The notes under the pieces were generated by a model that was given only the letters and a program-made list of their open reading frames with translations, was not told the origin of the DNA and made no database searches. Positions 49,798-62,227 of a stretch of 64,000 bases of DNA are shown in pieces. The number at the start of each line of letters is the position of its first letter. Position 1 is the first letter of the stretch. The position numbers and the translations under genes are program-made. The DNA is from Agromyces sp. Soil535 (GTDB lineage: Bacteria; Actinomycetota; Actinomycetes; Actinomycetales; Microbacteriaceae): NCBI RefSeq assembly GCF_001428255.1, contig NZ_LMRW01000025.1, positions 124,001 through 188,000 of the forward strand, given 5' to 3'.

Positions 49798-50766
49798 ATG
49801 ACCACGGCCGATCTGCTCGGCAAGCTCCTCCAGGTGGTGATGGCGCTCGTGATCTTCGCAGCGATCGTCGGCCTCCTGATCTTCTTCATCGACAAGGCCC
49901 CGAAGAGGGGCCGTGACTACTGGCAGCTGCTGGGGTTCCTCGCGCCCGCCCTGCTCTTCGTGGCGGTCGGCCTGGTCTATCCGGCGATCCGCACGAGCAT
50001 CCTCGCGTTCCAGGACTCGAGCGGCGACTGGACCTGGGACAACTTCATCTGGGCGTTGACGCAGCCGGCGGCGATCCGGACGCTCCTCAATACGATCGTC
50101 TGGGTGCTGCTCGTACCCACGTTCGCGACCGCAGTCGGCCTGGCCTACGCGGTGTTCATCGACCGGTCGCGCGGTGAGCGGTACTACAAGGTCGTGCTCT
50201 TCATGCCGATCGCCATCTCGTTCGTCGGTGCCAGCGTGATCTGGAAGTTCGTCTACGAGTACCGCTCGGGCGAACGCGAGCAGATCGGTCTGTTGAACGC
50301 GATCGTGGTCGCGTTCGGCGGTGAACCCGTGCAGTGGCTGCAGACCGACCCGATCAACACGATCCTCCTCATCGTGGTGATGATCTGGGTGCAGACCGGG
50401 TTCGCGATGATCGTGCTGAGTGCGGCGATCAAGGGCATCCCGACCGAGCAGCTCGAGGCGGCGCAGCTCGACGGCACGAACGGATGGCAGCGCTTCACCA
50501 ACGTCACGCTCCCGGGCATCCAGGGGGCGCTCGTGGTGGTGCTCACGGCGATCTCGATCGCCTCGCTGAAGGTCTTCGATATCGTGCGCACGATGACCGC
50601 CGGAAACTTCGACACGAGCGTCATCGCCAACGAGATGTACACGCAGGCGTTCCGGGCGAGCGAGATCGGGCGGGGTTCGGCGCTCGCGCTCATCCTGTTC
50701 GTGCTCGTGCTGCCGATCGTCATCTACAACGTCAACGTGCTCCGCAAGCAGAGGGAGATCCGATGA
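49798..50766 (+). CDS. Sugar ABC transporter permease, MalF/AglF type
   Basis: A 322-residue permease with an extra N-terminal helix (LLQVVMALVIFAAIVGLLIF) before the usual six. The coupling EAA loop is EQLEAAQLDGTNGWQRFTNVTLPG. The preceding hydrophobic extension is as seen in alpha-glucoside permeases. ATG 49798 follows GGGAGG. It overlaps the second permease by ATGA. Confidence 0.94.
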   Translation: MTTADLLGKLLQVVMALVIFAAIVGLLIFFIDKAPKRGRDYWQLLGFLAPALLFVAVGLVYPAIRTSILAFQDSSGDWTWDNFIWALTQPAAIRTLLNTIVWVLLVPTFATAVGLAYAVFIDRSRGERYYKVVLFMPIAISFVGASVIWKFVYEYRSGEREQIGLLNAIVVAFGGEPVQWLQTDPINTILLIVVMIWVQTGFAMIVLSAAIKGIPTEQLEAAQLDGTNGWQRFTNVTLPGIQGALVVVLTAISIASLKVFDIVRTMTAGNFDTSVIANEMYTQAFRASEIGRGSALALILFVLVLPIVIYNVNVLRKQREIR

Positions 50767-51755
50767 GCAGCGTCGCCCCCGCCGATCTTCCCGTCGGCAA
50801 GGACCTCGGCACCCTCGAGGCCGTCGAAGAGACCGAGTACGCCCAGCCCAAGACCGCGCGCGTCAAGAAGCGCCTGACGTCGCGCACCGCGACGATCGTG
50901 TCGCTGATCATCGCGGTCCTCTGGACGATCCCCACGTTCGGGCTGTTCCTCTCGTCGTTCCGTCCGGCGGAGCTCATCCGCACCACCGGGTGGTGGACCT
51001 ACTTCCAGAACCCGGGCCTCACGCTCGAGAACTACGGGAGCGTGCTGTTCTCGGCGTCCTCGTCGTCGCCGCAGCTCGGCGCCTACATCGTGAACTCGAT
51101 CGCCATCGCGCTGATCGCCACGATCATCCCGCTGGTGTTCGCGTCGATGGCCGCGTACGCGTTCGCGTGGATGAAGTTCCCCGGCGTGAACGTGCTCTTC
51201 GTCCTCATCTTCGCGCTGCAGATCATCCCGCTGCAGATGGCGCTCGTGCCGCTGCTGCAGATCTTCTCGACGATCTTGCGGCCCATGCAGGCCTGGCTGC
51301 ACGACGTGGTCCCGATCATCCCCGAGCAGAACTACCTGCCGGTGTGGCTCGCCCACTCGATGTTCGCGATCCCGCTCGCGATCTACCTGTTGCACAACTT
51401 CATCTCGCAGATCCCGGGCGACATCATCGAGGCGGCGAGGGTCGACGGTGCGAGCCACGGCCAGATCTTCTTCCGGATCGTGCTGCCGCTCTCGGTGCCC
51501 GCGCTCGCCTCCTTCGCGATCTTCCAGTTCATCTGGGTCTGGAACGACCTGCTCGTCGCCCTGATCTTCTCGGGTGGCACGCAGGACGTTGCGCCGCTCA
51601 CGCAGCGGTTGGCGGAGCTGACCGGCACGAGGGGCCAGGACTGGCAACTGTTGACCGCGGCCGCCTTCATCTCGATCATCGTCCCGCTGATCGTGTTCTT
51701 CGCCCTGCAGCGGTACTTCGTGCGCGGGCTGCTCGTCGGCGCGACGAAGGGCTGA
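50763..51755 (+). CDS. Sugar ABC transporter permease, MalG type
   Basis: A 330-residue permease with a 40-residue cytoplasmic N-terminus, six helices and the EAA loop GDIIEAARVDGASHGQIFFR followed by ILPLSVPA-like VLPLSVPALA. It pairs with the MalF-type subunit. The operon lacks an ATPase gene; actinobacterial importers of this type commonly share a single MsiK ATPase encoded elsewhere. No glycosidase is adjacent either. Confidence 0.95.
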   Translation: MSSVAPADLPVGKDLGTLEAVEETEYAQPKTARVKKRLTSRTATIVSLIIAVLWTIPTFGLFLSSFRPAELIRTTGWWTYFQNPGLTLENYGSVLFSASSSSPQLGAYIVNSIAIALIATIIPLVFASMAAYAFAWMKFPGVNVLFVLIFALQIIPLQMALVPLLQIFSTILRPMQAWLHDVVPIIPEQNYLPVWLAHSMFAIPLAIYLLHNFISQIPGDIIEAARVDGASHGQIFFRIVLPLSVPALASFAIFQFIWVWNDLLVALIFSGGTQDVAPLTQRLAELTGTRGQDWQLLTAAAFISIIVPLIVFFALQRYFVRGLLVGATKG

Positions 51756-51788
51756 TCGAGGGACTCCACCCGAATGGGCAGGGGGAGA

Positions 51789-51820
51789 CGGATGCCGCGT
51801 GCGGGGGCACGCGGCATCCG
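51789..51820. terminator. 14-bp hairpin ending the sugar importer operon
   Basis: CGGATGCCGCGTGC (51789-51802) pairs exactly with 51807-51820 around GGGG, 34 bases after the permease stop. It contains the GGATGCC word. Confidence 0.8.
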
Positions 51821-51844
51821 CCGTGTCCATGGCGACCACTGCCC

Positions 51845-51884
51845 CCCGGTCGTCGAGTAGCGCCGCCCGGTCGTCGAGTAGCGC
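51845..51884. repeat. Two direct repeats of 19 bp, period 21
   Basis: CCCGGTCGTCGAGTAGCGC occurs at 51845-51863 and 51866-51884 in the 260-base gap between the importer and the surface-protein gene. GCGCGCCGC...GCGGCGCGC-like symmetry follows. It is a short dispersed-type repeat, not a CRISPR. Confidence 0.7.
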
Positions 51885-51956
51885 GCCGCACAGCGGCGCG
51901 CAGGAGATCAGCCCCCATACCCGCGTGACAGCGCGGCGGGCGGATGTCGCGACGAA

Positions 51957-51998
51957 CGGACGGAGGCGGGCACCCGATCGGGCGCCCGCCTCCGTCCG
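51957..51998. terminator. 15-bp hairpin after the LPxTG protein gene
   Basis: Arms 51957-51971 (CGGACGGAGGCGGGC) and 51984-51998 are perfectly complementary with a 12-base loop, 17 bases beyond the stop of the reverse-strand gene. Confidence 0.78.
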
Positions 51999-52014
51999 CT
52001 GTGCGGATCGCAGG

Positions 52015-53238
52015 TCAGCTCACGTCGCGCGAGCCGGCCTCACGTCGGCGGGCGGCGACGAGAGTCGCACCGCCGAGGCCGAGGAGCAGCAGCCCGCTCA
52101 GCACGAGCGGACCCACGCCGTCGACACCCGTCGCGGGCAGCGTCGTGGTCGATGCGGGCTTCACCGGGGCGGCCGGGCAGGCCGCGAGCGCGAAGTCGGC
52201 GCTCACCGAGAGCATCACCGTCTCGAGCGGCGTGAAGTTCCCGCTGCCGACGAACGGCGGCTCCTCCCACGGCGGGATCGCCTGCCACACGCCCTCGACC
52301 CAGACGGTGTAGGCGCGCCCGCCGGGTAGCGACGAGAGGTCCAGCTCCGCCGTGCCCGTCGGGTCACCTGTCACGGTCTGCACCTCACCGTACGGCGTGC
52401 CGTCGATTACGCCCTGGTCGGTGACCCAGACCAGGTACTCGACGCCGTCGACAAGGCTCGAGAGGGCAACGTGCACCGCGCCGGTGCCGACGGCCGACGT
52501 GCATTCAGTAGCGTCCACCGCGATGGCGGGCTGGCAGGGCTCGATCGCGAAGCCGACCCAGTCGTAGACCGGCGGAGCAGGCGCGGCCGCCTGCCCCGGA
52601 CCCTCCGGACCCCGCAGGTGCTCGGCGTAGGCGTAGTAATTGCCCGGCGGGAGGCCGACGAGTTCGATGTCCTCGGTCTCACCGACCTCATCCAACTGGC
52701 CGCCCGCTGAGAAGTTCGGTCCCTGCACGTCGTACACGTAGAAGTCGCCCGGCACGAGCCCGGTGAGTGTGAGCAGCGCTTCGCCATTGCGATCGGTGCT
52801 GCATGCCAGGGGCGTCACGGCGACGCCCAGCTCTGGCGCGCAGGCCTCGACCGTGAACTCGCCCAAGACGGGGTCCAGGCCCTCGACCTCGGCGCTGGTG
52901 GAATACACCCCGGGCGCCAGGCCCTCGATCGCGATTTCCGTCTCGGCACCGGAGGCGACGAAGGACCCGCCGACCGAATACCCCTGGCCCGTCACCGTCC
53001 AGGCGTAGCCGTAGCCTTCGAACAGCCCGAACAACTGCAGCACCCCCGCGCCGTCGTCGCCGGTGCTGCAACCGACACTCACCTCCACCCAGGGGTCGGG
53101 GAGGGCTTTGGCAGCGGCCGGTGCCGCGGCGGCCAGGCCCGCGCCCGCGAGCAGCGCCACCGCGATGGTCGTCAGTAGCGCACGCCATCGCGACCGGGTC
53201 CGAGAGATCGCGTTCACGGGCAAGTTCGATCGAGGCAT
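52015..53238 (-). CDS. Sortase-anchored surface protein with three Cys-bearing repeats
   Basis: A 407-residue secreted protein: signal peptide (about 1-42, RALLTTIAVALLAGAGLAAA), three tandem domains of about 95-120 residues, and a C-terminal sorting signal LPATG (367-371), hydrophobic stretch and RRR tail. Each repeat starts near a C-S-T/C-T-S motif (VGCSTGDDGAG, LACSTDRNGEA, TECTSAVGTGA) and ends in a Cys (VEAC, EPC, LAAC), suggesting one disulphide per beta-sandwich domain. Ligand unknown; adhesion or wall structure likely. ATG 53238 follows GAGGGAG. Confidence 0.85.
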   Translation of the reverse strand: MPRSNLPVNAISRTRSRWRALLTTIAVALLAGAGLAAAAPAAAKALPDPWVEVSVGCSTGDDGAGVLQLFGLFEGYGYAWTVTGQGYSVGGSFVASGAETEIAIEGLAPGVYSTSAEVEGLDPVLGEFTVEACAPELGVAVTPLACSTDRNGEALLTLTGLVPGDFYVYDVQGPNFSAGGQLDEVGETEDIELVGLPPGNYYAYAEHLRGPEGPGQAAAPAPPVYDWVGFAIEPCQPAIAVDATECTSAVGTGAVHVALSSLVDGVEYLVWVTDQGVIDGTPYGEVQTVTGDPTGTAELDLSSLPGGRAYTVWVEGVWQAIPPWEEPPFVGSGNFTPLETVMLSVSADFALAACPAAPVKPASTTTLPATGVDGVGPLVLSGLLLLGLGGATLVAARRREAGSRDVS

Positions 53239-53363
53239 GGCGGACTCCCTCGGGTTGGAGCCGAACAATGCTCACTGTATTCCTGTCACGCCATGCGCGA
53301 ACGCCCCACTTCGGGGCCGTCGTGCAGGCGGTGGTGTTTCAGACGCAGCTTAGGCTGGAGCGC

Positions 53364-55277
53364 ATGAGCATGCACGGGAGCGCGCCGGGCGGGCAGACCG
53401 GCACATACGGAAAGGCGCGCACTCGCATCGCGTCGGCCGACGAAGTGACGCAGCGGGCCGAGAACGCGGTTGCGCCGAAGGTGCCGCACCTGCTCCGCCG
53501 CATCACGGAGTTGTTCGCGCCGCACAAAGCCGCACTCGTCACCACGGTCGTGCTCGTGCTGGTCGGTGCGGCCCTCAGCGTCATCCCGCCGCTGCTCACC
53601 CAGCGGGCGTTCGACGACGGGCTGTTCCCGGTCGGCGCCGACGGCCAGGTCACCGGGCCCGATCTCCCGGTGCTCATCCGGATCGTGGCCGCCATGGTCC
53701 TGGTGTACCTCGTGTCGGCACTGCTCGGCGTGTGGCAGACCTGGCTCACCGCCACGATCGGCAACAAGGTCATGGGCGCCTTGCGAGTGCGCCTCTTCAC
53801 TCACCTGCAGTCGATGGAGCTCAGCTTCTTCACGCGCACGAAGACCGGTGTCATCCAGTCGCGGCTGCAGAACGACGTGGGTGGGGTCGCGAGCGTGCTC
53901 ACGAACACGGTGTCGAGTGTGCTCGGCAACACGGTCACGGTGATCTCGGCGTTCGTGGCGATGCTGCTGCTGAACTGGCAGCTCACGATCATCGCCCTCG
54001 TGCTCATGCCCTTCATGGTCATCGCGCAGCGCCGCGTCGGCCGCGTCCGCGCACGTATCGCCGGCAAGACGCAGGAGTCGCTGTCGGAGATGACCGCCAT
54101 CACCCAGGAGACCCTGTCGGTGTCGGGCATCCTGCTCTCCAAGAGCTTCACGCGTCAGAAGAGCGAGATCGATCGCTACGACGACGAGAACCAGAACCAG
54201 ATCCGGCTCCAGGTCAAGCAGCAGATGACGGGCCAGTGGTTCTTCGCCATGGTCAGCATCTTCATGTCGTCGATCCCGGCGATCGTGTACCTCGCATCGG
54301 GGTGGCTGATGGCGGACGGTGCGGCGGATGTCACGGCGGGCACCATCGTGGCGTTCACCACGGTGCAAGCGCGACTGCTCTTCCCGCTCATGGGGCTCAT
54401 GCGCGTCGCCCTCGACCTGCAGACCTCGAGCGCCCTCTTCGCGAGGATCTTCGAGTATCTCGACCTGAAGCCCGCGATCACTGATGCCCCCGGCGCGCGC
54501 GAGGTGCCGACCGATGGCGCCCTCGGCCGAGTCGAGTTCGACGACGTCACGTTCCGCTACCCCGACGCCGATGGCGAGACGCAGCCCACGCTCGACGGCG
54601 TGAGCTTCACGATCGAGCCCGGCCAGTACGCGGCGTTCGTGGGGCCATCGGGCGCGGGCAAGACGACGGTGTCGTACCTCGTGCCGCGACTGTACGAGGC
54701 ATCCGGCGGCGCGGTGCGGTTCGCGGGCGACGACGTGCGGGAGCTCCGCCAGGAGTCGCTCATCTCGAACATCGGCATCGTGAGCCAGGAGACGTACCTC
54801 TTTCATGCGACCATCGCCGAGAACCTCCGGTATGCGAGGCCCGACGCCACCGACGCGGAGCTCGTGGCCGCGGCGAGGGCCGCGAACATCCACGAGACGA
54901 TCGCTTCGTTCCCCGAGGGCTACGACACGGTGGTCGGCGAGCGCGGCTACCGGCTCTCCGGCGGCGAGAAGCAGCGTATCGCCATCGCGCGCGTACTGCT
55001 GAAGGACCCGCCCGTGCTCGTGCTCGACGAGGCGACGAGCGCGCTCGACACGATCTCTGAGCGCGTCGTGCAGCAGGCGCTCGACGATGCCGCGCGCGGC
55101 CGCACGACCATCGCGATCGCGCATCGCCTGTCGACCGTGGTCGCGGCCGACGTGATCTTCGTGGTCGTCGCGGGCCGCGTCGTCGAGCGGGGCACGCACG
55201 CCGAGCTCGTGCTCGCCGACGGCGTGTACGCCTCGCTGTACCGTCAGCAGGAGGAGCGCCCCGTCTTCGAGTCCTGA
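53364..55277 (+). CDS. ABC exporter (fused membrane and ATPase domains)
   Basis: A 637-residue half-transporter: six-helix membrane domain (about 50-345) and C-terminal ATPase with Walker A GPSGAGKTT, Q-loop IVSQETYLFHATIAENL, signature LSGGEKQR, Walker B VLVLDEATSALD and H-loop AHRLST. Functions as a homodimer or with a partner elsewhere; exports lipids, peptides or drugs. ATG 53364 lies 7 bases after TAGGCT (53351-53356), leaderless-type. The 125-base divergent region also carries CGCCCC-acttc-GGGGC. Confidence 0.93.
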   Translation: MSMHGSAPGGQTGTYGKARTRIASADEVTQRAENAVAPKVPHLLRRITELFAPHKAALVTTVVLVLVGAALSVIPPLLTQRAFDDGLFPVGADGQVTGPDLPVLIRIVAAMVLVYLVSALLGVWQTWLTATIGNKVMGALRVRLFTHLQSMELSFFTRTKTGVIQSRLQNDVGGVASVLTNTVSSVLGNTVTVISAFVAMLLLNWQLTIIALVLMPFMVIAQRRVGRVRARIAGKTQESLSEMTAITQETLSVSGILLSKSFTRQKSEIDRYDDENQNQIRLQVKQQMTGQWFFAMVSIFMSSIPAIVYLASGWLMADGAADVTAGTIVAFTTVQARLLFPLMGLMRVALDLQTSSALFARIFEYLDLKPAITDAPGAREVPTDGALGRVEFDDVTFRYPDADGETQPTLDGVSFTIEPGQYAAFVGPSGAGKTTVSYLVPRLYEASGGAVRFAGDDVRELRQESLISNIGIVSQETYLFHATIAENLRYARPDATDAELVAAARAANIHETIASFPEGYDTVVGERGYRLSGGEKQRIAIARVLLKDPPVLVLDEATSALDTISERVVQQALDDAARGRTTIAIAHRLSTVVAADVIFVVVAGRVVERGTHAELVLADGVYASLYRQQEERPVFES

Positions 55278-55314
55278 GTCGGGTCGGTCACGCGCCCGAG
55301 GTCGTCAATCCGGC

Positions 55315-55359
55315 TAGGCTGTGGCCGTGAGTTCATCCATGCTGTGTTGTCGTCGCTGA
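55315..55359 (+). CDS. Leaderless cysteine-codon leader peptide (10 residues) and its -10 box
   Basis: TAGGCT (55315-55320) is followed after 6 bases by GTG at 55327, which opens an 11-codon frame ending TGA at 55357-55359. The peptide is MSSSMLCCRR, with adjacent Cys codons TGTTGT at 55345-55350. Poly-Cys leaderless small ORFs controlling cysteine genes by translation-dependent attenuation are established in mycobacteria. Here it lies 77 bases before cystathionine beta-synthase, with hairpins and a T-run right behind it. Ribosome stalling at the Cys codons under cysteine shortage would change folding downstream. Too small for standard gene finders; expression is inferred. Confidence 0.68.
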
Positions 55360-55382
55360 GACGAGGCGACCCCTTTTCAGCG
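55350..55382 (+). promoter_or_regulatory. Competing hairpins with T-run, cysteine attenuator
   Basis: TCGTC (55350-55354) can pair with GACGA (55360-55364); alternatively GTCGC (55352-55356) pairs with GCGAC (55366-55370), followed by CCCTTTT (55371-55377), a terminator-like form; a third option pairs CGCTGA (55354-55359) with TCAGCG (55377-55382). The left arms overlap the end of the leader ORF, so a stalled ribosome would block them. Confidence 0.55.
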
Positions 55383-55436
55383 TCGAGCACCGCATCCGGC
55401 GCCCAAGACGCACTGACACGAGGAAATGAACACGGC

Positions 55437-56804
55437 ATGAAGTATGCAGAGACCATCGTCGATCTCGTCGGCGACACCCCGCTCGTCAAGCTCCACCGGG
55501 TGACCGAGGGGGTGACGGATGCCACGGTGCTCGTGAAGCTCGAGTACTTCAACCCGGGCGGCTCGGCGAAGGACCGCATCGCCGCGCGCATCATCGACGC
55601 CGCCGAGGCCGAGGGCAAGCTGAAGCCGGGTGGCACCATCGTGGAGCCGACGTCGGGCAACACCGGGGTGGGCCTCGCGCTCGTGGCGCAGCAGCGCGGC
55701 TACAAGTGCATCTTCGTCTGCCCCGACAAGGTCGGCGAGGACAAGCGCAACGTGCTCACCGCGTACGGCGCCGAGGTCGTGGTGACGCCGACGGCGGTCG
55801 CCCCCGACAGCCCCGAGTCGTACTACGGCGTCTCGGATCGCCTGGCCCGCGAGATCCCCGGCGCGTTCAAGCCCGACCAGTACTCCAACCCGAACGGGCC
55901 GCGTTCGCACTACGAGACCACCGGCCCCGAGATCTGGCGCGACACCGACGGCAGGGTCACGCACTTCGTCGCGGGCGTCGGCACCGGCGGCACCATCACC
56001 GGCGCCGGACGCTACCTGCGCGAGGTCTCGGGCGACACCGTGCGCATCATCGGCGCCGACCCCGAGGGCTCCGTGTACTCGGGCGGCACCGGGCGCCCCT
56101 ACCTCGTGGAGGGCGTCGGCGAGGACTTCTGGCCCGCGGCCTACGACCCCGCGGTGCCGCACGAGATCATCGCCGTGTCCGACGCGGAGTCGTTCGAGAT
56201 GACCCGGCGGCTCGCGCGCGAGGAGGGCATCCTCGTGGGCGGGTCGAGCGGCATGGCCGTCGTCGCGGCGCTGAGGGCAGCGGCATCCGCCGGCCCCGAC
56301 GACGTGTTCGTCGTGCTGCTGCCCGACGGCGGCCGCGGCTACCTCGGCAAGATCTTCAACGACAAGTGGATGCGCGCCTACGGCTTCTCGAACGCGCCCG
56401 CCGGCCACACCATCGCCGAGCTGCTCGCCGCGAAGGCCGACCGCACGCCGCCCATCGTCTACGTGCACCCGAACGACACGATCCGCGAGGCCATCGACAC
56501 GATGACCGAGGCCGGCGTCTCGCAGCTGCTCGTGCTGGCTACGGAGCCGCCAGTGGTGCTCGGCGAGGTGGCGGGCGCGCTGCACGAGGAGGAGCTGCTC
56601 GACCTCGTGTTCTCGGGGCGGGCGAAGCTCACCGACAAGGTCTCGGGCGTGATGGGGGAGTCGCTGCCGCTCATCGGCGTGAACGAGCCCATTGCCGCTG
56701 CACGCTCGGCCTTCACCACGGCGCCGGCGATGCTCGTGACCGACGGGGGCAAGGCCCTCGGCGTCATCAGCCGGACCGACCTGCTGACCTACCTCTCGGC
56801 CTGA
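55437..56804 (+). CDS. cbs: Cystathionine beta-synthase
   Basis: A 455-residue PLP enzyme making cystathionine from serine and homocysteine. PLP lysine is Lys45 in GGSAKDRIAARI; EPTSGNTGVGLA and the phosphate loop GTGGTITGAG are intact. The C-terminus (about 340-455) is a pair of CBS domains (IVYVHPNDTIREAIDTMTEA and MLVTDGGKALGVISRTDLLT). No haem-binding N-terminus. The start has GAGGA 12 bases upstream. Together with metB it carries out transsulfuration between methionine and cysteine, under a cysteine leader. Confidence 0.93.
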   Translation: MKYAETIVDLVGDTPLVKLHRVTEGVTDATVLVKLEYFNPGGSAKDRIAARIIDAAEAEGKLKPGGTIVEPTSGNTGVGLALVAQQRGYKCIFVCPDKVGEDKRNVLTAYGAEVVVTPTAVAPDSPESYYGVSDRLAREIPGAFKPDQYSNPNGPRSHYETTGPEIWRDTDGRVTHFVAGVGTGGTITGAGRYLREVSGDTVRIIGADPEGSVYSGGTGRPYLVEGVGEDFWPAAYDPAVPHEIIAVSDAESFEMTRRLAREEGILVGGSSGMAVVAALRAAASAGPDDVFVVLLPDGGRGYLGKIFNDKWMRAYGFSNAPAGHTIAELLAAKADRTPPIVYVHPNDTIREAIDTMTEAGVSQLLVLATEPPVVLGEVAGALHEEELLDLVFSGRAKLTDKVSGVMGESLPLIGVNEPIAAARSAFTTAPAMLVTDGGKALGVISRTDLLTYLSA

Positions 56805-56825
56805 CAGAAAGCACCAGGTACGACC

Positions 56826-57995
56826 ATGACCACTCCTGAATTCGGGAAGGGTTTCGACACGCGCGCCATCCACGCGGGCCAGGAGTTCGACCCCACCACC
56901 GGCGCGGTCATCCCGCCCGTGTACCTCACGTCCACCTACGTGCAGGACGGCATCGGCGGCCTCCGCAACGGCTACGAGTACTCGCGCGGCGGCAACCCGA
57001 CCCGCACGGCGCTCGAGACCCAGCTCGCGTCGCTCGAAGGCGGCATCCGCGGCCTGTCGTTCGCGTCGGGCCTCGCCGCAGAAGACGCGCTGCTGCGCAC
57101 CGTGCTCGTGCCCGGCGACCACGTGGTCATCGGCAACGACGTGTACGGCGGCACGCACCGGCTCATCCGCCGGATCTTCGGCGACTGGGGCATCCGTCAC
57201 TCCACCGTCGACACCAGCGACCTCGACGCGGTGCGCGCCGCGATCGAGCTCGGCACGACCAAGGTGCTCTGGGTCGAGACACCGTCGAACCCGCTCATGA
57301 AGATCTCGGATGTCGCCGCGCTCGCCGAGCTCGGCTACGAGGCGGGCGTGCTCGTGGTGGTCGACAACACGTTCGCGTCGCCCGCACTGCAGCAGCCCCT
57401 CGCGCTCGGCGCCGACGTGGTCATCCACTCCACCACGAAGTACCTCGGCGGCCACTCCGACATCGTCGGCGGCGGCCTGGTCTTCGCCGCCGGGCAGGAG
57501 GAGCTCGCCGAGCGGGTCACGTTCACGCAGTTCGCGGCCGGTGCGGTCTCGAGCCCGTTCGACGCGTTCCTCACCTCGCGCGGCATCAAGACCCTCGGCA
57601 TCCGGATGCAGCGGCACAGCCAGAACGCGCTCGCGATCGCGCGGCGCCTCGAGGAGCACGCGGGCATCGAGCACGTGTTCTACCCCGGCCTCGAGTCGCA
57701 CCCCGGGCACCAGCTCGCCGCGCGCCAGATGTCGGGCTTCGGCGGCATGGTGTCGATCTCGCTCACGGGCGGCGCCGGGGCGGCGCGCAGGTTCGCGGAG
57801 TCGACCACGCTGTTCCAGCTCGCGGAGTCGCTCGGCGGGGTGGAATCGCTCGTGAACTACCCGTCGGAGATGACGCACGCGTCGGTGCGCGGCACCGAGG
57901 CCGAGGTGCCCGAGTCGGTCGTGCGCCTCTCGGTCGGCATCGAGGACGTCGACGACCTGCTCGCCGACATCGACGAGGCGCTCGCGCGGCTGTAG
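56826..57995 (+). CDS. metB: Cystathionine gamma-synthase
   Basis: A 389-residue Cys/Met-metabolism PLP enzyme: ATG, IPPVYLTSTYVQDGIGG, YSRGGNPTRTALE, ASGLAAEDALLRTV, and PLP Lys near 205 in IHSTTKYLGGHSD; C-terminal RLSVGIEDVDDLLADI. It condenses O-acylhomoserine with cysteine, or works as a lyase in reverse transsulfuration. It follows cbs after 21 bases in the same operon. The pair could run cysteine from methionine (reverse), which fits cysteine-responsive control. Confidence 0.95.
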   Translation: MTTPEFGKGFDTRAIHAGQEFDPTTGAVIPPVYLTSTYVQDGIGGLRNGYEYSRGGNPTRTALETQLASLEGGIRGLSFASGLAAEDALLRTVLVPGDHVVIGNDVYGGTHRLIRRIFGDWGIRHSTVDTSDLDAVRAAIELGTTKVLWVETPSNPLMKISDVAALAELGYEAGVLVVVDNTFASPALQQPLALGADVVIHSTTKYLGGHSDIVGGGLVFAAGQEELAERVTFTQFAAGAVSSPFDAFLTSRGIKTLGIRMQRHSQNALAIARRLEEHAGIEHVFYPGLESHPGHQLAARQMSGFGGMVSISLTGGAGAARRFAESTTLFQLAESLGGVESLVNYPSEMTHASVRGTEAEVPESVVRLSVGIEDVDDLLADIDEALARL

Positions 57996-58085
57996 CGGCG
58001 CCTGCCCTGCCGACTCCTCGCCGGTGGGAGAATGGGAGCAGCGGCGCGCGGCACGTCAACGGGCGCCCCGGGGAGATGAGTTCTC

Positions 58086-58895
58086 ATGGTCTGGCTCTGG
58101 GTCACTCTCGTCATCGTGGGCGTGCTCGCGATCGTGCTGTTCTTCATGTCGGTGAAGATCGTGAAGCAGTACGAGCGCGGCGTGGTGCTGCGGTTCGGGC
58201 GGTTGCACAACGTGCGCGAGCCGGGCATCCGGTTCATCATCCCGATCGTCGACGTGATGACCAAGGTGTCGCTGCGCATCGTGACCGTGCCGATCCAGTC
58301 GCAGGGCATCATCACGCAGGACAACGTGAGCGTGGGGGTCTCCGCCGTCGCGTACTACCGGATCGTGGACCCCGTGAAGTCGGTGATCGCGATCGAGAAC
58401 GTGCAGTCCGCGATCGACCAGATCGCGCAGACCACGCTCCGTAAGGTCGTCGGCCAGCACCACCTCGACGAGACGCTCGCCGAGACGGCGAAGCTCAACG
58501 TGAACATCCGCGAGATCCTCGACGAGACCACGGTCGAATGGGGCGCGCAGGTCACGCTCGTCGAGCTCAAGGACATCCTGCTGCCCGACTCGATGAAACG
58601 CGCCATGGCGAAGCAGGCCGAGGCGGAGCGCGAGAAGCGCGCGAAGATCATCGCCGCCGAGGGCGAGTCGCTCGCTGCGACGCAGCTCGGCGTCGCATCG
58701 GACACGATGATGTCGCATCCGCTCGCCCTGCAGCTGCGTACACTGCAGACCCTCGTCGAGATCGGCGTGGACAAGAACACGCTCGTGATCGTGCCGGCGC
58801 CGCTCCTGGGCTCGATCGGGGAGCTCACGAACTTCCTCGACCGCGAGTCGGCGGTGGCGCAGGTGAGAGGGGGCGCAGGACTGGCAGGATCTTGA
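58086..58895 (+). CDS. Slipin / SPFH-domain membrane protein
   Basis: The 269-residue protein has one N-terminal membrane helix (about 2-22) and an SPFH/band-7 domain (VKIVKQYERGVVLRFGRLHN, PGIRFIIPIVDVMTKVSLRI, VAYYRIVDPVKSVIAIENV), then a coiled-coil-like Ala/Glu stretch (KQAEAEREKRAKIIAAEGES). Slipins scaffold membrane microdomains and often work with an NfeD protein, which is not adjacent. GGGGAG precedes the ATG. Confidence 0.93.
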   Translation: MVWLWVTLVIVGVLAIVLFFMSVKIVKQYERGVVLRFGRLHNVREPGIRFIIPIVDVMTKVSLRIVTVPIQSQGIITQDNVSVGVSAVAYYRIVDPVKSVIAIENVQSAIDQIAQTTLRKVVGQHHLDETLAETAKLNVNIREILDETTVEWGAQVTLVELKDILLPDSMKRAMAKQAEAEREKRAKIIAAEGESLAATQLGVASDTMMSHPLALQLRTLQTLVEIGVDKNTLVIVPAPLLGSIGELTNFLDRESAVAQVRGGAGLAGS

Positions 58896-58952
58896 CGAAA
58901 CGGGTCAGTCCTGCCAACGGCGCATGTCGGTGGGATGCCGCAGAATGAGCGG

Positions 58953-60341
58953 GTGACTTCGAGCGACACCACCCCGGCGCGGCTGCCGGATGCCCCCGAC
59001 CCCACGGCCCCGGGAGCGACGCATCACGGCACGCTCGGCCTCGGTCAGGGCACTGCGCTCTACATCGCCAGCGTGCTCGGCACCGGCATCCTCGTCCTGC
59101 CCGGCCTTGCGGCGGCAGTGGCCGGGCCGGCGTCCATCCTTGCGGTCGCGGCCGTGCTCGTGCTCTCCATCCCGCTCGCCGGCACGTTCGCCTCGCTCGC
59201 CGCGCGGTACCCCGACCCGGGCGGCGTCGCGAGCTACGTGCGGCGCACGCTCGGCGACACGGCCGCGCGCATGACGGGGTACTGGTTCTACTTCGGCGTC
59301 TGCATCGGCGCGCCGGTGCTCGCGGTGCTCGGGGGCGAGTACGTCGTCGCGGTGCTCGGAGTCGACCGAGCCGCAGTCCCGATCATCGCGTTCGCGATCT
59401 TCGTGCCGCCGTTCGTGGCGAACTGGTTCGGCGTCCGGGTCGCCGGCTGGGTGCAGTTCGTCCTGACGGGCCTCCTGATCACGGTGGTCGTCGGCGTCGT
59501 CGCGGTGACGTTCCCCGCGGTCGAGCCGGGCAACTTCCAGCCGTTCCTCCCCAACGGGTGGTCGGGCGTCGGCACCGCGATCAGCCTGTTCGTGTGGGCG
59601 TTCGCCGGTTGGGAGGTCGGCACGCACATCGCGGGCGAGTTCAAGAACCCTCGGCGCATCATCCCCCTCGCCACGGGCATCGCGATCGTCGTCGTCGGCG
59701 CCGGATACCTCGCCCTGCAGGTGGTGACCGTCGGCGTGCTCGGCGACCAGGCGGGCGTCGGCGTCGTGCCGCTCCTCGATCTCGTCGAGACGACCGCGCC
59801 CGGCATCGGGTCCACGCTCGTGGCGATCGTCACGGCGATCGTCTGCCTCGGGGTGATGAACGCGTACCTGCCCGCGTTCGCCAAGCTCGGCGCGGCGCTC
59901 GGCCGCGACGGCGATCTGCCGCGCTTCCTCGCGAAGGGTGCCGGCAGCGGCGAGATCCCGCGCCGTGCGCTGATGCTCACCGCGGCGATGGTCGCCGTGT
60001 ACTTCGTGCTGATGCTGGTGAACGGCATGAACCTCTCTGCGTTCATCCTCATCCACACGAGCAACATGGTCGCGATCTACGCCGCGGGCATGCTCGCCGC
60101 GACCCTGCTCCTTCGGCGGTGGAGCTTCGGCTGGTGGCTCGCGGTCATCGCGACGATCATGACGGCGGGCCTCCTGGTGCTCGCCTGGGCGAACCTCCTC
60201 GTGCCGCTCATCCTCGCCGCGGCGGCCGTGCTCGTCACCGTCGTGCGCCGCGTGCGTCGGGCCCGCGCGAAGCGCGCACCGGCGACAAACCCGAACGCCA
60301 CCGAGTTGCCCGAATCTGCACGGATCCAGGCAACTCGGTGA
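58953..60341 (+). CDS. APC-family amino acid permease
   Basis: A 462-residue permease with 12 hydrophobic segments; the first unwound helix shows YIASVLGTGILVLPGLA (GxG), consistent with APC transporters. GTG 58953 is 6 bases after CAGAAT (58941-58946), leaderless-type; ATG 58935 would add six residues. Substrate undetermined (amino acid or polyamine). Its 3' end contains an inverted repeat at 60301-60338. Confidence 0.9.
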   Translation: MTSSDTTPARLPDAPDPTAPGATHHGTLGLGQGTALYIASVLGTGILVLPGLAAAVAGPASILAVAAVLVLSIPLAGTFASLAARYPDPGGVASYVRRTLGDTAARMTGYWFYFGVCIGAPVLAVLGGEYVVAVLGVDRAAVPIIAFAIFVPPFVANWFGVRVAGWVQFVLTGLLITVVVGVVAVTFPAVEPGNFQPFLPNGWSGVGTAISLFVWAFAGWEVGTHIAGEFKNPRRIIPLATGIAIVVVGAGYLALQVVTVGVLGDQAGVGVVPLLDLVETTAPGIGSTLVAIVTAIVCLGVMNAYLPAFAKLGAALGRDGDLPRFLAKGAGSGEIPRRALMLTAAMVAVYFVLMLVNGMNLSAFILIHTSNMVAIYAAGMLAATLLLRRWSFGWWLAVIATIMTAGLLVLAWANLLVPLILAAAAVLVTVVRRVRRARAKRAPATNPNATELPESARIQATR

Positions 60342-60374
60342 GGGCTCACACCGACTCGGTGAGCGCGCACACCC
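60301..60374. repeat. Inverted repeat and 21-bp tandem repeat at the end of the permease gene
   Basis: CCGAGTTGCC (60301-60310) pairs perfectly with GGCAACTCGG (60329-60338) across the final codons. Immediately after, ACTCGGTGAG-containing 21-mers at 60333-60353 and 60354-60374 repeat with 18 of 21 matches, over the stop codon and the 52-base gap before the cyclase gene. Confidence 0.6.
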
Positions 60375-60393
60375 GAATCGCAGAGGACTGCAC

Positions 60394-61332
60394 ATGACCG
60401 AGTACCGCGCCCACTTCGACGCCGAGATCACGTTCGTGAACGGGGGCGCACTTCGCGCGGAGGCGTTCCGCCTCGACCTGCCGTCGGCCGAGCTGACGAC
60501 GGAGGAGATCGGCGATCTGCTCGTGCGACACCTCGGGCTCGCGCTCGTCGGCAGTGTGGCGCTGTCGAACCTCGAGATCGTGGAGGAACTGCACCGGGGT
60601 TCGCGCGGCGTCATCGATGCGACCGACGCGATGACCGGGTCATCCGTCGCCCCTGCCGGCGTGCGCGGCGAGCTCGTCGACCTCAGCCAGCCCATCCGCG
60701 CCGGGCTGGTGACCTACCCCGGCATCCCGGCCCCCACGATCACGCCGCACCTCACTCGCGAGGCGTCGCGCGAGCACTACGCGCCCGGCACCGAGTTCGC
60801 GATCGACATCATCACCATGGCGGGCAACACGGGCACCTACCTCGACAGCCCCTACCACCGGTACCCCGACGGCGGCGATCTCGCGAGCCTCAGCCTCGAC
60901 ACGCTCGTCGGCGTGCCGGCCGAGGTGTTCCGGTTGACGGATGCCGCGAGCCGCGGCATCCCGGCCGAGGTCTTCCTCGACCGCGAGCTCGCCGGCACCG
61001 CCGTGCTGCTGCACACCGGATGGAGCCGCCACTTCGGCACGCCCGCGTACGCGCAGGGATCCCCGTTCCTCACCGAGGCGGGCGCACGGCATCTCGCCGA
61101 CGCCGGCGTTGCGCTCGTGGGCATCGACGCGCTCAACATCGACGACACCGAATCAGGCGGCGAGCGTCCCGCTCACTCGATCCTGCTCGAGGCGGGCGTG
61201 CACGTCGTGGAGCACCTCACGGCGCTCGAGCGCGTGCCGGTGCGCGGCGCGCGGTTCACGGCGGTGCCACCGCGCGTCGAGGGCTTCGGCACGTTCCCGG
61301 TGCGGGCGTTCGCGGAGCTGCCCCCTCGCTGA
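60394..61332 (+). CDS. Cyclase-family (kynurenine-formamidase-like) hydrolase with extra N-terminal domain
   Basis: A 312-residue protein: an N-terminal domain of about 90 residues of unknown kind (FDAEITFVNGGALRAEAFRL), then a cyclase-fold domain (LVDLSQPIRAGLVTYPGIPA). The family metal motif HxGTHxDxPxH appears as NTGTYLDSPYH (145-155), so the first two His are Asn145 and Tyr149 while Asp151 and His155 remain. Either a distinct subfamily with altered metal site or altered chemistry. It may share a transcript with the permease upstream. Confidence 0.82.
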   Translation: MTEYRAHFDAEITFVNGGALRAEAFRLDLPSAELTTEEIGDLLVRHLGLALVGSVALSNLEIVEELHRGSRGVIDATDAMTGSSVAPAGVRGELVDLSQPIRAGLVTYPGIPAPTITPHLTREASREHYAPGTEFAIDIITMAGNTGTYLDSPYHRYPDGGDLASLSLDTLVGVPAEVFRLTDAASRGIPAEVFLDRELAGTAVLLHTGWSRHFGTPAYAQGSPFLTEAGARHLADAGVALVGIDALNIDDTESGGERPAHSILLEAGVHVVEHLTALERVPVRGARFTAVPPRVEGFGTFPVRAFAELPPR

Positions 61333-61396
61333 ACGCGCTGCGTCGGGCGGCGCGGGGCAGTGGCATCCGCCGCCCCTTGTGGGTGAGGATAAGGGG

Positions 61397-62227
61397 ATGA
61401 CCGCTCCCGAGTACTCCCTCCGCGACGGCAACTCCATCCCGGCCATCGGGCTCGGCACGTTCGGGCTCAACGAGCAGACCGGCATCGGGGCCATCGTGTC
61501 GGGCATCGCCGACGGGTACCGGCTCATCGACACGGCGTACAACTACGGCAACGAGGACGTCGTGGGGGAGGCCGTGCGTCGCGCCGACGTCGACCGCAGC
61601 GACCTCGTCATCACGACGAAGCTGCCCGGCCGACACCACGGCTTCGACGAGACGATCGCGAGCCTCGGGGAGTCGCTTCGTCGGCTCGACCTCGAGTGGG
61701 TCGACCTCTACCTCATCCACTGGCCTCTCCCGCGCATCGACAAGTTCGTCGACAGCTGGCGTGCGATGATCCGGTTGCGCGAGAGGGGGCTCGCGCGCTC
61801 GATCGGCGTCTCGAACTTCACCCCCGCGATGCTCGACCGGCTCGAGCGCGACACGGGCGTCGTGCCCGTCGTGAACCAGGTGGAGCTGCATCCGTACTTC
61901 CCGCAGGAGGAGCTGCGCGCCTACCACGACGAGCACGACATCCGCACCGAGAGCTGGAGCCCGCTCGCCAAGCGCAGCGAGCTCCTGAAGGAAGGCGTCA
62001 TCACCGCGATCGCGGCCGAGCACGGGGTCTCGCCGGCGCAGGTCGTGCTGCGCTGGCACGTCGAGCTCGAGGCGGTGCCGATCCCGAAGTCGGCGGATGC
62101 CGCACGGCGGCGTGAGAACCTCGACGTGTTCTCGTTCAGCCTCTCGAACGACGAGATCGAGGCGATCACCGCCCTGTCGCGCGGTCGGCTGTGGGGCGGC
62201 GACCCCGACACGCACGAGGAGTTCTGA
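61397..62227 (+). CDS. Aldo/keto reductase
   Basis: A 276-residue AKR with Asp/Tyr/Lys/His tetrad in sequence order: GYRLIDTAYNYGNE (Asp, Tyr), TTKLPGRHH (Lys), LIHWPLP (His), and NADPH site IPKSADAARRRENL. ATG 61397 is 6 bases after GAGGAT (61385-61390). It reduces aldehydes or ketones with NADPH; the physiological substrate is unknown. Related to 2,5-diketo-gluconate reductases. Confidence 0.95.
   Translation: MTAPEYSLRDGNSIPAIGLGTFGLNEQTGIGAIVSGIADGYRLIDTAYNYGNEDVVGEAVRRADVDRSDLVITTKLPGRHHGFDETIASLGESLRRLDLEWVDLYLIHWPLPRIDKFVDSWRAMIRLRERGLARSIGVSNFTPAMLDRLERDTGVVPVVNQVELHPYFPQEELRAYHDEHDIRTESWSPLAKRSELLKEGVITAIAAEHGVSPAQVVLRWHVELEAVPIPKSADAARRRENLDVFSFSLSNDEIEAITALSRGRLWGGDPDTHEEF

Follow-up and report, generated by a model that had tools for sequence, protein, structure and literature searches.

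A cysteine-codon leader reading frame ahead of cbs-metB in Agromyces: a probable cysteine-sensing translation attenuator

What is a ten-codon open reading frame with two adjacent cysteine codons doing directly ahead of a pair of transsulfuration genes? The question is raised by a locus in the window (the whole 64 kb stretch of Agromyces DNA that was analysed), where an initial annotation had pointed out a TAGGCT box, a GTG six bases on, two adjacent Cys codons and a stop, all of which are present as described. The codons of this leader read GTG AGT TCA TCC ATG CTG TGT TGT CGT CGC, its stop TGA occupies 55357-55359, and 77 nt separate that TGA from the ATG of cbs at 55437. The parts of the locus are:

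55315..55320, plus strand: -10 promoter element TAGGCT, 6 nt (GTGGCC) ahead of the GTG at 55327
55327..55359, plus strand: leader open reading frame, GTG to TGA, peptide MSSSMLCCRR, leaderless-type (from sequence and conservation in the genus)
55345..55350, plus strand: tandem Cys codons TGT TGT, the proposed sensor (from sequence and genus comparison)
55420..55423, plus strand: Shine-Dalgarno-like GAGG of cbs, 13 nt ahead of its ATG
55437..56804, plus strand: cbs, cystathionine beta-synthase (TIGR01137, 594 bits, above the cut-off of 510)
56826..57995, plus strand: metB, cystathionine gamma-synthase family (NF005871, 631 bits, above the cut-off of 513)

The gap between cbs and metB is 21 nt, and metB adjoins cbs in 99 of 100 loci (some species being represented twice), the single miss having no metB match in its flank. 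In a contig search the best matches of the cbs protein are from Agromyces, and in the tree of cbs proteins the window adjoins Agromyces bauzanensis. Judging from the enzyme families, the products of cbs and metB would make cysteine from homocysteine via reverse transsulfuration. On the 3' side of metB, at 58935-60341, lies a gene resembling L-methionine/branched-chain amino acid transporters, with a score below the model cut-off.

Chance has to be considered first. The 64 kb window has five reading frames of at most 20 codons that start 6-7 nt behind a TANNNT, and of these only the leader contains a Cys pair. Across the family, represented by the best-scoring 110 cbs places from a 199-genome search, a reading frame with at least two Cys codons begins 5-8 nt after a TANNNT in 33 of 110 cbs upstream regions. 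None of the 110 shows this anatomy when its strand is reversed, and among 2200 dinucleotide shuffles 2 do. Leaders with at least two Cys codons were also found at 14 of the 80 cbs loci from the contig search, among them two of Occultella, which lies outside the family. Judged by these counts, the leader anatomy is not a product of chance.

Within the genus, 60 genomes yielded 59 cbs orthologues (G215 being the one without a full-length cbs match), and a Cys leader at promoter spacing precedes 57 of these 59. The leaders carry two Cys codons in 37 cases, three in 15, four in 3 and one in 2; the codons are not tandem in some of them, e.g. MTVRLGCRCRS. Conservation in close relatives, one of the two points on which the initial annotation had let its proposal stand or fall, is thus borne out, with at least two Cys codons before 55 of the 59 orthologues, one before 2 and no leader before 2. 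The start codon is GTG in 56 leaders and ATG in one, and it lies 6 nt (35 leaders) or 7 nt (22 leaders) from the -10 element, a spacing that was itself among the search criteria (5-9 nt in the first pass, 6-7 nt for 11 leaders added afterwards, ten of which were outside the start-motif filter and one, from G228, outside the two-Cys rule). Comparison of the 57 promoters, in which the TA...T of the -10 was fixed by the selection criterion, shows a preference for GGC-like bases ahead of the -10 and no conserved -35.

The same comparison bears on the annotation of cbs itself. An open frame runs from a GTG at 55344 into cbs, as it would if cbs encoded a longer protein with an upstream start, the leader being a by-product of overlapping frames. 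Stop-to-ATG distances within the genus (e.g. 73, 74, 75, 76 and 77 nt) differ by non-multiples of three, however, and an N-terminally extended cbs, which is contradicted by these non-triplet spacers, was therefore rejected as having next to no chance of being correct. A micro-ORF, ATG AAC ACG GCA TGA, at 55426-55440 overlaps the start of cbs (ATGA); it is probably incidental, since its ATG occurs in some relatives and is missing from others (G208, G243).

How might a leader of this kind act on cbs? The initial annotation had seen overlapping stems ending in CCCTTTT and read them as an attenuator. Folding of the RNA from 55327 to 55439 (113 nt) does give a structure, at -41.0 kcal/mol (z -2.08; 4 of 200 shuffles fold as stably) and with the minimum free energy (MFE) fold identical to the centroid, but what this structure indicates is a hidden cbs start codon and not a CCCTTTT attenuator. 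The predicted elements are:

55338..55348, plus strand: 5' strand of helix P1, CAUGCUGUGUU, containing the first Cys codon (predicted fold, MFE = centroid)
55429..55439, plus strand: 3' strand of helix P1, AACACGGCAUG, containing the cbs start codon (predicted fold)
55352..55370, plus strand: hairpin P2, 55352-55357 with 55365-55370, with the stop codon on the loop side (fold)
55372..55375, plus strand: P3, CCUU pairing with the Shine-Dalgarno-like GAGG, 4 pairs (fold; 75% of cells paired, weakly conserved)
55380..55411, plus strand: stem P4, 55380-55384 with 55407-55411 (fold; 96% of cells paired)

Helix P1 is predicted to consist of 11 pairs, joining 55338-55348 to 55429-55439; the latter strand lies at the downstream end of the interval first annotated and extends past it. 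Hairpin P2, with 96.8% of cells paired in 21 relatives yet nearly invariant, is the element on which transcription attenuation, the reading of the initial annotation, would depend: the stem at 55352-55370 followed by CCCCTTTT would terminate transcription unless a stalled ribosome blocked the stem. The components are there, since GTCGCT at 55352-55357 can pair with GGCGAC at 55365-55370 and CCCCTTTT follows, and the stem, besides being kept in those relatives, overlaps the last leader codons and the stop. Passages of PMC8632094, moreover, describe a Cys-codon upstream ORF (uORF) with a terminator before cysS in Rhodobacterales. Against this, a terminator scan finds no intrinsic terminator at the locus, and of the 57 genus leaders only 5 have a TTTT in the 30 nt that follow the stop. 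The stem and the T-run of the initial annotation hold up, then, and their role as an attenuator does not; intrinsic termination is disfavoured, and we consider this reading very unlikely. A comparison of positions 50000-62000 of the window with Rfam cis-regulatory families gave 0 matches at the gathering score.

Start-codon sequestration by P1 can be followed through the relatives. By eye, and without a tree, a window-type group was drawn up from shared leader and spacer sequence, giving 24 distinct pairs of leader and cbs start. In 21 of these 24 the Cys region and the cbs start form an uninterrupted helix of at least 6 pairs, compared with 4 of the 27 other distinct genus pairs. Where the strands differ they can differ together: the leader and cbs-start strands are AUGCUGUGUU/AACACGGCAU in the window, AUGUUGUGUU/AACACAGCAU in G208 and AUGCCGUGUU/AACACGGCAU in G234; G220 has a matched variant, CCGGUGUU with AACACCGG, and another, GCCUGUU with AACAGGC, occurs outside the window-type group in G204. 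Both single-Cys genus leaders, MSAPMLCRRR (L211, from G228) and MSSSLLC (L233, from G238), keep the start helix, and among leaders that are not of the window type there are examples without a long start helix, such as those of G244, G217 and G142.

Permutation of partners, in which kinship is ignored, agrees with this division. The pairing score of the true partners was reached in 16 of 100000 permutations of all 51 distinct pairs and in 221 of 100000 inside the 24 window-type pairs; among the 27 other genus pairs, own partners were no better than swapped ones (13143 of 100000, not significant). By duplex energy, the sum over the 51 pairs was reached by 3 of 100000 permutations, again with kinship ignored, and for the individual pair a mean of 0.42 of swapped ribosome-binding sites (RBSs) and 0.34 of swapped leaders beat the own partner. 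An alignment of 21 chosen window-type rows, several of them misaligned at the cbs start, has 85.2% of cells paired (matched by 5 of 500 shuffles) and a covariation score reached by 26 of 500 column shuffles; its pairs with two-sided change are not above shuffles (336 of 500). At the pair 55343-55434, the 12 of 21 rows in which both neighbouring pairs are formed have U-G (7), U-A (2), G-C (2) and C-G (1), and the raw counts, which include rows without a real helix, are U-G 8, G-C 4, U-A 4 and C-G 1.

Recoding of the leader in silico gives a further view of the same pairing. The RBS of the window is unpaired with a value of 0.27 in the native sequence, as against 0.48 after synonymous recoding and 0.42 when the Cys codons are kept, and the mean openness of the cbs start in 65 of 88 leaders is 0.381 for native sequences versus 0.474 for recoded ones (p 1e-6) and 0.443 with Cys codons kept. 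Native openness is below that of the fully recoded sequence in 39 of 55 genus leaders; this holds for 5 of the 10 non-genus leaders, among which recoding makes no difference. Duplexes formed by the entire leader and the RBS were in weak excess over 40 leaders, at -17.7 kcal/mol versus -16.3 and -16.4 kcal/mol in shuffle controls, with p <= 0.05 in 4 of 40 per control and a combined p of about 0.01 from rows that are not independent; because this excess is weak, the pairing tests were moved to the Cys region alone. Taken as comparative sequence evidence, P1 is supported among window-type leaders and rarely elsewhere in the genus.

The helix also bears on Rho-dependent attenuation, in which the untranslated 77-nt spacer would expose a Rho site past the leader stop and a stalled ribosome would hinder Rho. 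Such a mechanism is put forward for Cys leaders of Mycobacterium, P. acnes and B. longum in passages of PMC1262725, and it could cover the relatives without P1, but it leaves P1 and its matching changes with the cbs start in window-type leaders unexplained, and we regard it as unlikely.

A second signal lies in the choice of Cys codon. Genus leaders use TGT 124 times and TGC 9 times, against TGC 58 and TGT 1 in the full-length cbs genes of the genus. A pool of 190 cbs upstream regions (L001-L190), from which six with an unrecognised cbs start were dropped (L056, L058, L088, L153, L178 and L184), retained 43 leaders, and the 40 distinct ones have TGT 93 times and TGC 13 times. The bias is equal at both codons of Cys pairs (63 : 4 each) and is present too in genus leaders without the start helix. 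Since the last base of the second Cys codon of the window is unpaired in the predicted fold, the choice of that codon is not explained by pairing alone, and this, together with the bias in leaders lacking the helix, suggests that the rare UGU may be kept for decoding as well.

Does the leader serve this operon only? A sequence model of promoter plus leader, built from 21 of 62 different cbs leaders with that of the window among its rows, found the leader anatomy in the genome of the window at cbs only (34.7 bits), the next match scoring 13.9 bits and lacking the anatomy. In 85 family genomes it gave 23 matches at E <= 0.02, of which 10 have the leader anatomy and all 10 of these stand before cbs; its sensitivity is 9 of the 16 cbs leaders known in those genomes, where the cbs upstream region was read in 50. 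No Cys leader was seen near cysK, cysE, PAPS-reductase-type genes or four other PF01053 genes of the same genome within flanks of at most 1.5 kb (0.9 kb for cysK), lengths at which promoters further up an operon would be missed. The cysE gene adjoins a cysK-like gene (contig C12, 320052-321489), and no Cys leader was seen near them.

These searches also concern a plainer account, namely that this is a leaderless mini-ORF like any other, or encodes a Cys-rich micropeptide acting by itself, without control in cis. Outside the Cys/Arg end the peptide is variable (62 distinct sequences), the rare Cys codon has been retained, and the 10 anatomy-bearing matches all precede cbs under a model that recovers 9 of 16 known leaders, all of which speak against a free-standing product; we give this account little credence.

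Promoter spacing, the reading frame, conservation of the Cys codons, the UGU bias and, among window-type leaders, the putative P1 with its matching changes are thus documented at the level of sequence. The reading that we prefer, with a probability of roughly two in three (0.68), is that the leader is a cysteine-sensing translation attenuator of cbs-metB, for which we infer the transcript start, translation, stalling, the cysteine response and the direction of regulation. Transcription would begin at or near the GTG at 55327, giving an mRNA that opens with the ten-codon reading frame, on which a ribosome would start without a Shine-Dalgarno site. With Cys-tRNA plentiful, the ribosome would finish and depart, and CAUGCUGUGUU would pair with AACACGGCAUG, burying the AUG of cbs; with Cys-tRNA scarce, it would wait on UGU UGU, holding the 5' strands of P1 and P2 and leaving the cbs start free. 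The products of the freed cbs and of metB would then supply cysteine from homocysteine by reverse transsulfuration. The mycobacterial model of Canestrari 2020 (Mol Microbiol 114:93) is reportedly one of ribosome-binding-site sequestration.

Modelling of ribosome positions qualifies this scheme. The modelled openness of the Shine-Dalgarno core, as a mean of 40 leaders, is 0.37 for free RNA, 0.56 with a ribosome stalled at Cys and 0.57 with one at the stop codon; the corresponding values for the wider cbs start region of the window are 0.35, 0.55 and 0.49, and the Shine-Dalgarno core of the window is not opened in the model (0.35, 0.34 and 0.32). A ribosome stalled at Cys and one standing on the stop codon are thus not told apart by the model. 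Since a stop-codon ribosome opens cbs as well, the switch would have to rest on dwell time and not on position alone.

Related systems have been described. Shell and co-workers found Cys-rich upstream ORFs on leaderless transcripts in mycobacteria in 2015, according to passages of PMC4633059; six polycysteine leaderless ORFs are predicted in M. tuberculosis in a passage of PMC9094748, and that article, PMC13236596 and PMC9031893 contain passages citing Canestrari 2020 for cysteine-dependent attenuation in M. smegmatis. As far as these passages go, the Agromyces leader has in common with the mycobacterial type a short leaderless-type ORF, Cys codons near its end and cysteine-metabolism genes downstream. 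Its Cys codons are conserved (at least two in the 55 of 59 genus orthologues) and it is the first ORF before a cysteine-metabolism operon; stall-dependent attenuation of the downstream gene is described for mycobacteria in the same sources and proposed here likewise. Unlike the mycobacterial type, the Agromyces leader stands before cbs-metB, often has two Cys codons only, nearly all of them UGU, and includes a Cys codon that is itself a predicted pairing partner of the cbs start region. In a limited search its genome has the leader at cbs alone, compared with the six predicted in M. tuberculosis (PMC9094748); control of more than one locus per genome is characteristic of the mycobacterial set without being strictly required.

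Earlier still, in 2005, Cys leaders were predicted in Bifidobacterium longum, where cbs follows, and at cys operons in Mycobacterium and P. acnes, as passages of PMC1262725 relate. The B. longum leader described there shares with that of Agromyces a short ORF, consecutive Cys codons close to the stop and the same downstream gene, cbs. According to those passages, conserved (terminator) hairpins were not found for the mycobacterial set, and a role of Rho is suggested; the genome list includes Leifsonia xyli, for which the passages report no cbs leader (PMC1262725). The term leaderless is never used in the text of that paper. The uORFC-8-2 before cysS of Rhodobacterales, in the passages of PMC8632094 devoted to it, likewise has two tandem conserved Cys codons and a proposed ribosome-mediated attenuation, and differs in its AUG start, in the dominance of UGC, in a U-run that fits an intrinsic terminator and in the tRNA synthetase gene downstream.

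A literature search that covered few subscription papers found, among the papers listed, no report of a Cys leader before cbs in Microbacteriaceae. The initial description of the system as under-described is right only in part, since predictions of 2005 (in passages of PMC1262725) and a mycobacterial mechanism are published. Its suggestion that the mycobacterial logic operates here on transsulfuration genes agrees with the conserved Cys ORF, the leaderless-type spacing and the cbs/metB context; the transcription attenuator is the part that falls away. By analogy, the Agromyces cbs leader probably works like the mycobacterial polycysteine leaderless ORFs, its cysteine response included. If so, ribosome-based cysteine sensing would extend from mycobacteria to Microbacteriaceae, here with a comparative set deep enough to reveal a pairing partner and a codon choice, and in a ten-codon gene that would escape length-limited annotation.

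The leader is not the only arrangement at cbs. Among the 110 family places, cbs itself begins 5-8 nt after a TANNNT in 39, neither cbs nor a Cys leader does so in 38, and both do in none; judged by this spacing, many Microbacteriaceae have a probably leaderless cbs in place of the Cys leader. Fitting the leader label to a tree of 70 distinct cbs proteins takes 10 changes, of which well-supported branches force at least 5, with gains and losses not told apart.

Drawing these lines together, it is conceivable, at somewhat under even odds, that in window-type leaders a single short segment of the mRNA serves as sensor and as lock, in that rare UGU codons would report Cys-tRNA and the first of them lies in the strand that would cover the cbs start. 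On this combined account UGU would be kept for slow decoding and for pairing, a single operon would be served, and the switch would have been gained or lost repeatedly, with a leaderless cbs in many related lineages instead. Were it true, the lineages would form a natural series for how such switches arise and vanish.

Relatives lacking the leader, like the single-Cys variants, offer natural test material for its role. In G219 (L199) and G248 (L204) the leader and most of the spacer are missing, while TAGGCT and the Shine-Dalgarno region are kept; their upstream sequences are near-identical, so this loss may be one deletion. Judging from these sequences, G219, G248 and L001, which is Agromyces humi, are natural candidates for constitutive cbs expression; the upstream sequence of Agromyces humi is the same as that of G219, and the two may be the same genome.
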